39,269 nt of DNA from Bacteroidota bacterium (GTDB lineage: Bacteria > Bacteroidota > Bacteroidia > Chitinophagales > LD1): positions 11,275 through 50,543 of the forward strand of contig JAPLES010000029.1 in NCBI GenBank assembly GCA_026391075.1, read 5' to 3'. The notes under the pieces are model-generated. The model worked only from the letters and a program-made list of their open reading frames with translations, was not told the origin of the DNA and made no database searches. Position 1 is the first letter of the stretch. The number at the start of each line of letters is the position of its first letter. Below, in pieces: positions 2,155 to 39,211 of this stretch. A program made the position numbers and the translations under genes.

Positions 2155-2184
2155 TAAAAGTAATATTATTGTCGGGTGAGCAAA
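2155..2184 (-). promoter_or_regulatory. Candidate promoter of the flippase-wzz operon
   Basis: On the minus strand TTTG (2184-2181) is separated by 18 bp from TACTTTTA (2162-2155). The consensus of the Bacteroidota primary sigma factor is TTTG, about 19-21 bp, TAnnTTTG, so this matches except for the last base of the -7 box. The element overlaps the GTG start of the divergent glycosyltransferase, so the two promoters probably interfere with each other. Inferred from motif only. Confidence 0.35.
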
Positions 2185-3345
2185 CGCAAAGCAATAGCTG
2201 TGAACACGCGGTTTCTGATTAAAAATAAATTGGAAGGCATTGGCTTGTTTACTTATGAATCGCTCAAGCGAATTACAAAATCGCACCCGGAAATTGATTT
2301 CTATTTTTTGTTCGATAGAAAATTTGACCAAGAATTTATCTTCTCACAAAATGTTCATCCCGTTGTTCTATTTCCGCAGGCACGCCATCCTTTTCTTTGG
2401 TATTGGTGGTTCGAAATTTCAGTGGCTCGTTGGCTGAATAAAAACAAACCCGATTTGTTTTTGTCTACTGATGGTTATGGATGCTTGAATAGCAACGTTT
2501 CTCAAGTCCTCGTTATTCACGACATAGCGTTCGAACATTTTCCGGAACACGTATCGTTCCTTGCCAGAAAATACTATCAATATTTTATGCCACGCTTTGC
2601 TGCAAAAGCAAATCGCATTGCCACTGTTTCTTCATTTTCGAAACAGGATATTGTTTCGCATTACCATGTCTCAGCGGAGAAAATTGATGTGGTTTATAAC
2701 GGAGCAAAAGAAGTTTACAAACCGGCTACGGATGCGCTAAAAATTTCTGTGAAACAGAAGTATGCCGAGGGCAAAAACTATTTTGTTTACGTTGGTTCCA
2801 TTCATCCGCGCAAAAATGTGAAGCGGTTGTTGTTGGCGTTCGAGCAATTCAAACAAGCCACTAATTCTGATTTCAAACTTTTAATAGTTGGAAGAAAAGC
2901 ATGGAACTTTACCGATGTGAATGAAGCGTACTCTAAAATGAAATTTAAGGAAGACGTGAAATTCATCGGACACATTCCACCAAATGAATTGGGAGAAATT
3001 GTAGCAAGTGCTTTTGCCATGGTTTATGTTTCTCTCTTCGAAGGTTTTGGAATTCCTATTGTGGAAGCTATGAGTTGCGAAGTGCCGGTGATTGCTTCGA
3101 ATATCTCTTCAATGCCCGAAGCTGCCGGTGATGCAGCTTTGTTGGTGAATCCGAATTCAATAGAAGAAATTTCTTCTGCCATGAAAAAAATGGTGGAAGA
3201 TTCTGCGCTTCGAAGTTCGCTGATAGAAAAGGGAAAAATTCAAATTAAAAAATTCAATTGGGATTTAACTGCTAAAATACTTTGGAGCAGTTGCGAAGGT
3301 TGTCTGCACCAAAGATCGGACAAACAAATTCTAGACGGAGGGTGA
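2176..3345 (+). CDS. Glycosyltransferase family 4 protein
   Basis: A 389-residue GT-B glycosyltransferase starting at GTG (2176). The N-terminal acceptor domain contains VLVIHDIAFEHFPE (111-124) and IATVSSFSKQDI (148-159), then YVGSIHPRKNV (205-215) opens the donor domain. The nucleotide-sugar site shows the GT4 EX7E motif, E289-GFGIPIV-E297. The C-terminus PVIASNISSMPEAAGDAA is also typical. It transfers a sugar to a growing lipid-linked or polysaccharide acceptor at the cytoplasmic membrane face; donor and linkage are unknown. It is divergent from the flippase. The last 14 residues (from about 376) are encoded by a degenerate copy of the intergenic repeat at 3302-3321, so the tail is probably recently acquired and non-functional. 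Confidence 0.88.
   Translation: MSKRKAIAVNTRFLIKNKLEGIGLFTYESLKRITKSHPEIDFYFLFDRKFDQEFIFSQNVHPVVLFPQARHPFLWYWWFEISVARWLNKNKPDLFLSTDGYGCLNSNVSQVLVIHDIAFEHFPEHVSFLARKYYQYFMPRFAAKANRIATVSSFSKQDIVSHYHVSAEKIDVVYNGAKEVYKPATDALKISVKQKYAEGKNYFVYVGSIHPRKNVKRLLLAFEQFKQATNSDFKLLIVGRKAWNFTDVNEAYSKMKFKEDVKFIGHIPPNELGEIVASAFAMVYVSLFEGFGIPIVEAMSCEVPVIASNISSMPEAAGDAALLVNPNSIEEISSAMKKMVEDSALRSSLIEKGKIQIKKFNWDLTAKILWSSCEGCLHQRSDKQILDGG
3302..3321 (+). repeat. Degenerate arm copy of the 3351-3408 palindrome
   Basis: The 20 bases here match the left arm at 3351-3370 at 17 of 20 positions (shared core GTCTGCACCAAAG). They lie inside the 3' end of the glycosyltransferase reading frame and encode its unusual tail. 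This makes three related arm sequences within 110 bp. Confidence 0.7.
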
Positions 3346-3350
3346 ACATA

Positions 3351-3408
3351 GTCTGCACCAAAGGTCAGGCGGTTGACTTTAAAAAAATGCCTGACCTTCG
3401 GTGCAGAC
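3351..3408. repeat. Palindromic intergenic repeat (REP-like)
   Basis: Left arm 3351-3370 starts GTCTGCACCAAAGG and ends TCAGGC. Right arm 3389-3408 is its reverse complement except for one base (19 of 20 pairs). The 18-base loop is A-rich. The transcript would form a long stable hairpin between the glycosyltransferase and the DinB-like gene. It resembles a terminator or a REP-type mobile palindrome, and lacks a clear trailing T-run on the plus strand. Confidence 0.8.
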
Positions 3409-3420
3409 AAAAACAATAAC

Positions 3421-3972
3421 ATGCGAAAATCAAAGGATGAAATCATTAACGAATTGAAAGAAAGTTTCGATTCGCTTATTACTGCTTCGGCTGCGGTCAG
3501 CAATGAAATGTTCAATGTTTCGAAAGAAAATAGATGGACAACGGCTGAAAATATTTCACACTTGGTTAGCGCAACAAAAATGACGACCATGGCTTTTGTG
3601 CTGCCTAAGTTCCTTCCCGTTTTGTTGTATGGAAGACCAGGACATGCTTCGCATAGTTATTTGAAAATAGTAGAGAACTATGAAAAGAAATTGGAAGGCG
3701 GTGCAAAGGCAACCGGAGTTTATGTGCCGAAGAAAACTAACTACGAAAAAGAAAAGCTGAATAATAAACTACAAGCAGAAGGTGAAAAACTAATTCGTGC
3801 TATTGTAGAAAAATGGAACGATGAGCAACTCGACCATTATCAAATTTCACATCCTATTTTAGGATTGCTTACTGTTCGTGAACTCGCGTACTTCACTATT
3901 CATCACAACGCTCATCACCTAGAAACTATAAAGAAGTATTACCTGGCTTCAGTAGGTTCAAACCAAACTTAG
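3421..3972 (+). CDS. DinB-like superfamily protein
   Basis: A 183-residue protein beginning MRKSKDEIINELKESFDSL. I chose the ATG at 3421; the frame is open further upstream to a TTG at 3373, but that extension would translate the loop and right arm of the palindrome. The protein looks like a four-helix DinB/YfiT-type fold: a tryptophan-containing WTTAENISHLV segment with His47 and a C-terminal HHNAHHLETI with His162/His166, the usual positions of the three metal-binding histidines. DinB-like proteins include thiol-dependent transferases and many uncharacterised stress proteins, so the reaction is not predictable. The 3' end overlaps the convergent hutH by 15 bp. Confidence 0.7.
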   Translation: MRKSKDEIINELKESFDSLITASAAVSNEMFNVSKENRWTTAENISHLVSATKMTTMAFVLPKFLPVLLYGRPGHASHSYLKIVENYEKKLEGGAKATGVYVPKKTNYEKEKLNNKLQAEGEKLIRAIVEKWNDEQLDHYQISHPILGLLTVRELAYFTIHHNAHHLETIKKYYLASVGSNQT

Positions 3973-9354: not shown

Positions 9355-12324
9355 CTATTCGCTTTTCACCAAACGAATGCAGCCATTTTTTGTTCCAAGA
9401 TTATAGCGCACTAGGTAAATTCCTTTGCTCCACAAATCGGTATTTATCAATATCGAATTTTCACCAACAGGCAAACTAAGGTAGAACTGCTTTACTTCCT
9501 CGCCTAACATATTCACGATACTGATTTTTACATCCTCCTCTGTTTCGGCACTAATTTGCAAGGTGCTATAGGACTTTGTTGGATTTGGGCGAAGTGATAT
9601 TTCAAATTTTGTTTCCATCCTATTTTTTGTTTCATCGGTTTTAAAAATAGGAGGAACTATAGGCATTTGGGTAGTGTCGTAGGTATACCAGTCTAATTGA
9701 TATGTTTTGGTGGCATGACCAAAACCTGCAGGGTCAAACACACGCGCAGTTTGTGTAACAATATTGGCGCTGTTTTGAAAAGATGGATTAGGATACCAAA
9801 TAAAACGGTTACCGGTTGCTTGTGTTCCGTTCATACTTTGCCGTAGCAAAAGTCCGTTGGCATCCAGCAATTCAAAATCGTAATTCTGTGCATTATTAGA
9901 AAGTGTAAAACGGTACATCACCATAGTAGTATCCGTAGTAAAACTAAAATGATCTACATCGGTGCCGGGGCAAATATTTCCAACATAAGAAGTTCCTGAG
10001 GCTATAGGATACGCTGTAGCTAACAAATCGTTGTTCTCATAATTATCAGCGGTACAACTGTTCGTAATCCATCCATCGAGCCGGTAATAAAGTTGCGCGT
10101 TGTTTTGCTGTGTAGGACAATAAATTTTCACCCAGTATTGTGCTATAGGCGCATTGGGATAGAAAATATATTCATTCATCGTTCCCGGATTGTTGCTGTA
10201 AGTAATCAAGGCACCGGCTGGGCTATACAAATCCATACGATAGTTAGCGGGCAGCTGAGTAAGCGAAAGATTGATGTCGGGAAATTGCGCTGAGTTGGAA
10301 ATATGAAAAAAATCAAGATCATTCTTCGGACAAATTACAGCAAGATTTCCGGGTCCGGTATTGGAACCCACACCCATGTTAATGGGTCGTGAAAAAACAT
10401 TCAAGTTGTTGTTTTCATATTGATCGAATGCACAAACCACTACTTGCTGCATAGTCCAAAAAATTGTTCCTGCATTAAATGGCGACTGTGCTCCACCGGG
10501 GCATACACTTTGCACCACCACGTTGTAAGGCGTAAACGGTAGTAAACCGGGAATCAAAAAATTATTTACTGCGCTGGGAGCCATAAACCACGGTCCATTG
10601 GGATACTGCTGCCAGTTGACTATGTAGGTAACTCCAGCACCCATATTATTCCAACCCACCGTAATTGTGTTTGCTGTAAACGCAGGAGAAAATAAACCTG
10701 TTGGTGGATTGCCGCAAGGCGAAGCAGACATAACTGGATTGTTTGCGTTTATACGACCATAGCCCATGGTATTTTGCCAACTGCCATTGGGATGTGCGGC
10801 ATTGGTGGTATAAGTTACTCCACCTACTTTATCGCAGTTGCTCTCCAATATTTGACGTGCTTGTGCACCAGTGAGCGCATTATTTGCAGAAAGGATTAGA
10901 GCACACACGCCTGCAGCATTAGGACACGCGGCTGACGTACCATTAAACACAGTATTAAAATCTGTAGGGTTAGTACCGGCCACCCCTAAATTATCGGTAG
11001 TAAAAATCTTTACACCAGGTGCCATTACATCGAGCGTATTTCCAAAATTACTTCCCCAAAAATTTTCACCATCACAGCTGGTTGGTGATTTTCGTTGATC
11101 GCACATGCTGGTTGCGCCTACTGTTATTACTTCTGCTCGATTAGAAGGATAAAGTATAGCTGTGTTATTCGTATTGCCGCTGGCAAAAAGCACAAGCGCA
11201 CCTTTCCCGTTTCGTCCTAGAGTAACCGCATTCGTAAGCGCAGTATTTATTACAGCAGCTGTTGGCCCTCCACTCCAAGAGTTACTCAACACGTCTGCAC
11301 CATTCTGCCACGCAAAATTAATAGCGTTCGCTACTCCTTGATTGGTTGAAATATGAGCCATTCCTTTTGCAGGGCTGGCAAAAAATCGAACAGGCATTAA
11401 CTTACATCCAAACGCTACACCGGCTACCAATGTTGCGTTGTTACCGTTGGCTGCTGCAATACCTGCGCAAGCCGTACCGTGATTATCCCAAGCGTTAGCA
11501 GCGCCACCAAGATTTGCAATGGCATCAAAACCGGGCACTAATTTTCCTGCAAATTCATGATGGTTTAAATCCACTCCATCATCAATAATGGCTATGGTAA
11601 TATTCGGGGTGCCGGTAGTAATATTCCATGCTGCCTGCACATCCATATCCGCATCATTCAATCCATTTTGCACCGTTGCTGCGCCTAGATTTTCTAATGA
11701 CCATTGCTGTGGTACAAACGGATCGTTTGGCACAAAATCAGGACTTAGAAAAAGTAGAAAGTCGGGCTCGGCATATTCTACTCCAGTAGTTTGAGCTAAA
11801 ACATTGGCAAGATCAAGTGCCGTTTTGGCGCGGCTGTCAATAACTTTAAAATGAAAGAGGTTAGGTTCAAATTTATTTTTGTTTACAAACAAAGCACCAA
11901 AACTTTCTGCCACTTTACGAACAGCAGAAAAATCGGTACTGGTTTTTGTCTTCACATAAAAATTATCGGTTACCCCAAATTTACTTCCGGTGTTTTCGAA
12001 AACCGGATTTGCATAACGCACGTTTAAATTCTTCAAAAGTATTTGCTGCGCATCTTTCCACTGTACATCGGTAATTGCTTTTTTTAGTGTTATTGAATAA
12101 ACCTGAAATTCTTGAAGGTAGAAAATCTCAGCCTGAGCAAAGGCTGTTTTGTCTACTATTCGCTTTAGTTGCAATGCCGAAAAGCCGGGTTTCGTACCCA
12201 CCAAAAACGTGTTCAAGTTTTGGTTCAAGTTTGTTTTCCCATCGGGAGACATGTAATAGTATTCGGCCGGACGAGCAATTAAAAAAAAGAGAAAGAAGAG
12301 CGAAGAGGTTAAAATCTTTTTCAT
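9355..12324 (-). CDS. Secreted S8 (subtilisin-like) serine protease with T9SS sorting domain
   Basis: I start at the ATG at 12324 (989 residues), where MKKILTSSLFFLFFL forms a normal signal peptide; the frame extends 13 codons upstream to a TTG. A propeptide-like region fills about residues 20-190. The catalytic triad is Asp248 (AIIDDGVDLNH), His282 (DNHGTACAGIAA) and Ser464 (NGTSAACPNAAG), with oxyanion Asn384 (ASGN). Next come a fibronectin-III-like domain (about 535-620) and two PPC-like beta domains, each opening with a YENN motif. The last about 80 residues (LRPNPTKS to IRLVKSE) are a type A T9SS sorting domain, so the enzyme should be exported by T9SS and attached to or released from the surface. 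A strong terminator follows. Confidence 0.9.
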   Translation of the reverse strand: MKKILTSSLFFLFFLIARPAEYYYMSPDGKTNLNQNLNTFLVGTKPGFSALQLKRIVDKTAFAQAEIFYLQEFQVYSITLKKAITDVQWKDAQQILLKNLNVRYANPVFENTGSKFGVTDNFYVKTKTSTDFSAVRKVAESFGALFVNKNKFEPNLFHFKVIDSRAKTALDLANVLAQTTGVEYAEPDFLLFLSPDFVPNDPFVPQQWSLENLGAATVQNGLNDADMDVQAAWNITTGTPNITIAIIDDGVDLNHHEFAGKLVPGFDAIANLGGAANAWDNHGTACAGIAAANGNNATLVAGVAFGCKLMPVRFFASPAKGMAHISTNQGVANAINFAWQNGADVLSNSWSGGPTAAVINTALTNAVTLGRNGKGALVLFASGNTNNTAILYPSNRAEVITVGATSMCDQRKSPTSCDGENFWGSNFGNTLDVMAPGVKIFTTDNLGVAGTNPTDFNTVFNGTSAACPNAAGVCALILSANNALTGAQARQILESNCDKVGGVTYTTNAAHPNGSWQNTMGYGRINANNPVMSASPCGNPPTGLFSPAFTANTITVGWNNMGAGVTYIVNWQQYPNGPWFMAPSAVNNFLIPGLLPFTPYNVVVQSVCPGGAQSPFNAGTIFWTMQQVVVCAFDQYENNNLNVFSRPINMGVGSNTGPGNLAVICPKNDLDFFHISNSAQFPDINLSLTQLPANYRMDLYSPAGALITYSNNPGTMNEYIFYPNAPIAQYWVKIYCPTQQNNAQLYYRLDGWITNSCTADNYENNDLLATAYPIASGTSYVGNICPGTDVDHFSFTTDTTMVMYRFTLSNNAQNYDFELLDANGLLLRQSMNGTQATGNRFIWYPNPSFQNSANIVTQTARVFDPAGFGHATKTYQLDWYTYDTTQMPIVPPIFKTDETKNRMETKFEISLRPNPTKSYSTLQISAETEEDVKISIVNMLGEEVKQFYLSLPVGENSILINTDLWSKGIYLVRYNLGTKNGCIRLVKSE

Positions 12325-39126: not shown

Positions 39127-39211
39127 TGGTACCGAAGGTGGGAATCGAACCCACACACCTTGCGATACACGATTTTGAGTCGTGCGCGTCTACCAATTCC
39201 GCCACTTCGGC
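39127..39211 (-). tRNA. tRNA-Leu (CAA)
   Basis: An 85-base class II tRNA. The acceptor stem is GCCGAAG paired with CTTCGGT (the first pair is a G-U wobble), then discriminator A and an encoded CCA. The anticodon arm is CACGA-CTCAAAA-TCGTG with anticodon CAA, reading UUG leucine codons. The T arm is GTGGG-TTCGATT-CCCAC, and a long variable arm fits leucine. Confidence 0.96.

Follow-up and report, generated by a model that had tools for sequence, protein, structure and literature searches.

Arms at the end of a glycosyltransferase gene

Can a palindromic repeat enter a gene, rewrite the end of the encoded protein and persist there, and what are its other copies doing in the genome? The question is raised by the 3' end of a group-1 glycosyltransferase gene in a 39,269 nt stretch of a Bacteroidota genome (the window), where an earlier note had described three related 20 bp arms, two of them forming a 19/20 palindrome with an 18-base loop. 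This description was borne out by the window sequence: arms are present at 3302-3321 (+), 3351-3370 (+) and 3389-3408 (-), and the second and third are 95% complementary over 20 nt and lie 18 nt apart. Searching the window at up to three mismatches gave exactly these three matches (100 shuffles: mean 0.00, largest 0), and the nonamer GTCTGCACC has a fourth, isolated occurrence at 11293. The features of the locus are listed below, where G015 is a congener of the window's own genome (G000), and G004 a third genome from which the corresponding gene ends were fetched.

2176..3345 (+), group-1 glycosyltransferase gene (Pfam PF00534, 8.1e-36); unit 1 and the spacer code for its residues from about 376 onward
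3302..3321 (+), repeat unit 1 (GTCTGCACCAAAGATCGGAC), inside the glycosyltransferase gene; its left flank makes it the counterpart of the single G015 unit
3322..3350 (+), spacer of 29 nt, without counterpart here in G015 or G004; contains the present glycosyltransferase stop (TGA, 3343-3345)
3351..3370 (+), repeat unit 2 (GTCTGCACCAAAGGTCAGGC); the right flank, GGTTGACTTTAAAAAAATG, is like that of the G015 unit
3371..3388 (no strand), loop of 18 nt between units 2 and 3, from the arm positions and the fold
3389..3408 (-), repeat unit 3 (GTCTGCACCGAAGGTCAGGC), inverted, with a GGC end in common with unit 2
3421..3972 (+), DinB-superfamily gene (Pfam PF12867, 2.4e-10), with its ATG 12 nt past the large hairpin

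The RNA fold of 3346-3415 has an energy of -37.3 kcal/mol (z -9.7), and none of 200 shuffles was as good. A hairpin of this stability might serve as an intrinsic terminator for the glycosyltransferase transcript, but no T-run follows it on either strand, and a terminator scan of 3200-3500 found none at 3351-3408, although the loop limit of 8 in that scan would miss an 18 nt loop; we regard termination as highly improbable. Against Rfam at gathering thresholds, the window gave no match for the hairpin and a single hit elsewhere, a tRNA gene at 39130-39211 (-).

The glycosyltransferase frame opens at 2176 and runs for 389 codons, which puts nucleotide 3302 in codon 376, in agreement with the proposal that the repeat writes an odd C-terminal tail from about residue 376. 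In G004 the enzyme ends in SSCEKVLNNL* and the DinB ATG lies 9 nt past the stop, an empty site. The G015 protein ends in SSCERSLHRRSDR*, the final residues being one repeat unit, and that of the window's species in SSCEGCLHQRSDKQILDGG*. Within the genus, G000 and G015 have a repeat-coded tail and the other 16 of 18 genomes lack it, and the close homologues without the repeat end differently, which removes the possibility that the tail is common to homologues regardless of the repeat.

The flanks of the single G015 unit are split between two units in the window, the left one matching unit 1 and the right one unit 2, and among the 22 arms of the two genomes the GGC end is private to units 2 and 3; units 2 and 3 therefore look like later additions. 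Unit 3 is probably an inverted copy of unit 2, as judged from the common GGC end. The in-gene copy, shared with G015, is thus the older insertion, and the palindromic pair looks like a later gain in the window's lineage, which reverses the suggested order of an element that had 'duplicated and ran into a gene'. The glycosyltransferase provides an example of a REP-like insertion rewriting a protein's end and persisting.

At the same locus in G015, a 388-aa gene (L028:306-1472) separates the repeat unit from DinB. Among the 18 genomes, G010 has a counterpart of 82% identity, three others have weak matches and G000 has none. The gene lacks a Pfam hit and scores 5e-14 with PDC-S11, a candidate defence family of PADLOC.

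A dispersed family and its insertion history

The genome of the window consists of 3,606,139 bases in 91 contigs and is 98% complete. A search of it with the 20-mer at up to three mismatches gave 10 matches (reversed control pattern, 0), so that the arm is not unique to this site. With a degenerate pattern, 11 arms were found at eight places, each with at most two mismatches, while the reversed control gave four matches at up to three mismatches; the inferred dispersed palindromic repeat family is thus real. Its unit is a 22 bp quasi-palindrome, GGTCTGCACCGAAGGTCAGACC, and copies outside the window are mostly identical to it or one to two bases off. A unit alone can form a hairpin with a 9 bp stem, one bulged C and a 3 nt loop (-10.8 kcal/mol as RNA, -5.5 as DNA). 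Copies are dispersed, mainly extragenic and of low number, with eight places in G000 and nine in G015 (95% complete). Closely spaced inverted pairs occur at window units 2 and 3, at the C85 site of G000 and its G015 orthologue, and at the C4 site of G015, and all other sites hold single units. Information content across 22 arms, which come from two genomes with orthologous copies included and so are not independent, is about 1 to 2 bits in the 20 nt core and about 0.5 bit or less just outside it. The single higher outside value, 0.76 bit, lies a few bases upstream of the core, and in our reading may reflect the A of the stop codon in several copies.

At up to three mismatches, the 22-mer matches six of 198 genomes, among them G000 (8 matches) and G015 (10), and none of the other 16 congeners. 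The remaining four (G187, G164, G145 and G092) are more distant genomes with one or two matches each at two to three mismatches; these were taken as chance, and both G187 matches lie inside a longer repeat. By this search, the family is confined to the congener G015 among the 197 relatives. A scan of public species genomes with a 19-base degenerate form, GGTCTGNACCNAAGGTNAGACC, from which near-identical records were possibly excluded, returned two stretches, both from one Bacteroidetes MAG, and the same pattern had no match in the viral contigs scanned.

Six of the eight G000 places are orthologous in G015, by flanks and neighbouring genes, and in the same orientation, and one of the six is an inverted pair with the same 25 nt spacer in both genomes. 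The description of the family as 'active' is not supported, given its few copies and the six of eight places common to a related species. Together, G000 and G015 have 11 known sites, and the gene ends were fetched in G004, G015 and G000. At these 11 sites, G004 has nine clean empty sites, one rearranged region and one without an orthologue found; in one empty site the stop TAA is followed directly by ATG (L093 and L097). Two sites found only in G015 are empty in G000 (L026, L036) and one found only in G000 is empty in G015 (L033). For each genome, the orthologue search went on to score 40 of its 80-91 first-look candidates, and among those scored there was no orthologue of the L038 site in G000 or G004, or of the L027 site in G015; for L027, the choice between two G004 hits was made by the neighbouring gene.

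A tree of seven neighbouring genes joined G000 and G015 against G004 with support of 98/97 when all columns were used, an alignment that favours this grouping because the repeat-coded tail is included. Support was 95/96 without the tail and 91/94 without the glycosyltransferase, while the glycosyltransferase alone, tail left out, gave 92/74, so the sister grouping appears moderately supported once the trait's own columns are dropped. Comparison with the clean empty sites of G004 shows that the units are insertions. The simplest history is that they entered before G000 and G015 diverged and that some one-sided events followed.

Position after stop codons and conservation of the core

Nine of the 11 sites start 5-14 nt past the stop codon of the upstream gene, and in seven of these nine the nearest unit has the orientation of that gene. 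The other two are the glycosyltransferase itself and a site 9 nt ahead of the start of an M23-peptidase gene. Given intergenic placement, the chance of nine in 11 being so placed is roughly 4e-8, a value for which the background was the window by itself, with 31 ORFs by a crude gene call and 3133 intergenic bases. The literature already describes REPs that lie less than 20 bp from a gene end, that supply a stop codon or that sit inside a gene (PMC3733652, section 15), and E. coli REPs less than 16 nt past a stop are reported to lower translation (PMC12306157). By a different REP finder, however, the latter paper finds only 446 of the 4,072 REPs of E. coli at 15 nt or less from a stop, so that a post-stop position is no rule for REPs.

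At five shared sites outside the window (6 arms), 112 of 120 positions of the 20 nt core are identical between G000 and G015 (93%). The adjoining 12 nt agree at 49 of 73 alignment columns on the left and 43 of 74 on the right (together 92/147, 63%). Further out, at bases 13-60, where coding and non-coding sequence are mixed, the agreement is 257/291 and 227/294. In nine neighbouring genes, as far as they could be aligned, fourfold-degenerate sites are 63% identical (862/1366); identity at codon positions 1 and 2 of neighbouring genes is 96%. Core differences are about five times fewer than those at silent sites (8/120 against 504/1366), and retention of the core comes close to that of codon positions 1 and 2. 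The core differs from the adjoining bases (Fisher p 1e-9) and from fourfold sites (1.5e-13; 5e-14 with the first arm of the window included, 129/140), while adjoining bases and fourfold sites do not differ (p 0.93). This comparison, made on 6 arms from two multi-contig genomes in which copies were found by consensus search and nearby non-coding stretches are also conserved, suggests selective retention of the hairpins, which may serve as RNA elements at 3' ends. The 22 arms carry 23 substitutions from the consensus, nine at unpaired positions, seven that keep the pair and seven that break it, with no compensatory double change in the stem among them. Since seven of the 14 substitutions at paired positions break the pair, and none is compensated, the constraint looks sequence-specific rather than purely structural.

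One non-coding neighbour is itself strongly conserved: 13-60 nt from the unit at L017/L034, 48 of 48 bases are identical between G000 and G015. The stretch lies upstream of an iron-containing alcohol dehydrogenase gene and is perhaps its promoter.

Three alternatives bear on these numbers. The units could be functionless fossils of a REP-like family, inserted ancestrally and now drifting, with core conservation a small-sample or search effect. There are few copies and no linked transposase, and copies were found through their likeness to the consensus, all as such a history would have it. Drift at the silent rate, however, describes the adjoining bases and not the core, and the three testable one-sided sites (L026, L036 and L033) are empty rather than decayed in the other species, so the conserved cores were not simply picked out by the search. 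We think a drifting fossil unlikely.

A continuing turnover, in which an enzyme re-inserts or converts units at existing unit sites, would renew the core and scramble its neighbours. This would suit the adjoining 12 nt, which are less alike than bases further out, and those units that are common to both genomes yet have differing linkers; stop-to-core linkers are poorly alike in some G000/G015 pairs, and could also be compatible with independent insertion. Adjoining bases are nevertheless as well preserved as silent sites, the six shared sites have their units in the same orientation, no cognate enzyme is seen beside a unit in G000 or G015, and 22 bp is short for homologous conversion, and we find turnover of this kind quite unlikely.

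Finally, a quasi-palindrome under apparently sequence-specific constraint might be the operator of a dimeric DNA-binding protein, and at some sites (L022, L027, L032) the unit does lie 12-15 nt ahead of the next ATG. Such a regulon is improbable in our estimate: the units come after stop codons and in either orientation, the genes ahead of them show no evident relation (methylmalonyl-CoA mutase, LytTR regulator, polyphosphate kinase, FAA hydrolase, FecCD permease and a secretion-tail-domain protein), and the precise empty sites of G004, one of them TAA then ATG, indicate that the units arrived as insertions.

Whether single REP copies are useful to the host or debris is an old open question, and the combination of few traceable copies, clean empty sites and a silent-site yardstick makes it directly testable in this clade. 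In the literature searched, which took in few of the subscription papers, there was no report of the unit or of site-by-site conservation of REP cores, and it is this site-by-site retention of the core that seems most worth following up.

Relation to known repeats and Y1 transposases

Comparison with known systems places the unit close to REP/BIME/REPIN elements and their RAYT (TnpA-REP) enzymes. Like them, it is a short palindrome (theirs are 20-40 bp), dispersed, single or in inverted pairs, and found near gene 3' ends, sometimes supplying a stop or lying inside a gene (PMC3733652, section 15). Unlike them, it has few copies and no GTAG/GTGG tetranucleotide at its foot, and no RAYT gene flanked by the unit was found. 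The canonical tag implied by a REP-type reading is missing: GTAG, GTGG or CGTC occurs within 8 nt of the foot in one of 22 arms. Since two defining features were tested for and are lacking, the foot tag and a RAYT flanked by the unit, the unit falls outside the canonical GTAG class, yet it works like a REP, as a small hairpin beside stops, single or in inverted pairs, and once in a gene end.

CGTC-tagged repeats are likewise a palindromic family without a dedicated transposase (PMC3733652), but our unit has no CGTC tag. The 'atypical secondary structures' of Bacteroidetes TnpA-Y1 subclass 2.6 also lack GTAG (PMC6006769); they flank their gene, whereas the unit flanks none found, a separation made by description and not by sequence. 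The sequence YIHQNP is found in two of the resident Y1 genes (L013 and L015), in keeping with the motif that PMC6006769 lists for subclass 2.6. Rickettsia palindromic elements (RPE) resemble the unit as palindromes inserted into genes (PMC3733652, section 15), although RPE-1 is longer (PMC3733652), a comparison made by description alone.

Four Y1-transposase genes are present in G000 (L012, L013, L014 and L015) and three in G015. Three genes score 85.8, 75.9 and 65.0 bits with the NCBIfam REP-associated tyrosine transposase model (cut-off 80, passed by one), and the fourth (L012) fits an IS200/IS605 model. No unit lies beside any of the four G000 loci at up to six mismatches, the L014 stretch ending 69 nt past the gene, or beside the three in G015 at up to five mismatches, where other repeats adjoin the genes. 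L013, L014 and L015 are each bracketed by their own type of inverted repeat. The predicted link to a RAYT gene is unproven: Y1 genes are present, but none was found adjoined by the unit. With no Y1 gene of G000 or G015 flanked by it, the family is without a visible driver in either genome. Precedents are REP classes whose RAYT is not found in the strain (PMC3686654) and the CGTC repeats, which have no dedicated transposase (PMC3733652).

We consider it rather probable that the units form a small REP-like family with ancestral insertions, one of which supplied an enzyme tail, that was spread by an HUH enzyme and whose units are now selected as 3'-end elements. On the simplest history, six insertions date from before the window's species and G015 diverged. 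One unit landed in the last glycosyltransferase codons and replaced the native end with a new tail, and the window's lineage then gained a second unit and an inverted third. Because no cognate transposase was found beside the units, their mode of spread is assigned by analogy, as single-strand hairpin transposition by a RAYT/IS200-type HUH enzyme unlinked to any copy found. The units may now be held at their sites by selection: transcribed 5-14 nt past a stop, the hairpin could act at the 3' end of the message by slowing terminating ribosomes, as reported for REPs of E. coli that follow a stop by no more than 15 nt (PMC12306157), or by shielding the upstream message from 3' exonucleases. More tentatively, this could be an orphaned REP-like family with individual insertions domesticated, the core being selected at orthologous gene ends almost as strictly as codon positions 1 and 2 while its surroundings drifted at the silent rate, and one unit now forming an enzyme C-terminus.

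The same genome holds other palindromes next to Y1 genes. RAYT-like genes L013 and L014 are flanked by their own inverted palindromes of the AGTCATGC and CGCAGGGTC types, and the IS200-type gene L012 (G000:C44:55572-55916) has, by eye, small CCGAAGGACTT- and CTCCGAAGGAGT-like palindromes upstream. A second palindromic family, AGGTGTCWGACAY, with nine half-sites, is linked to the RAYT-like gene L015 and has like habits, with inverted pairs beside stops and one gene tail written. At L112:1501-1533 (G000:C33:56953-56985) it writes the neighbouring gene's tail, KVSDTSKVSDT*, and it adjoins or overlaps gene ends at two further places (L116, L118). At L111, about 1475-1515 (G000:C6:103604), a unit of this family lies in an open frame, apparently as an in-frame insertion, and the frame resembles an adenylate-cyclase domain by eye.
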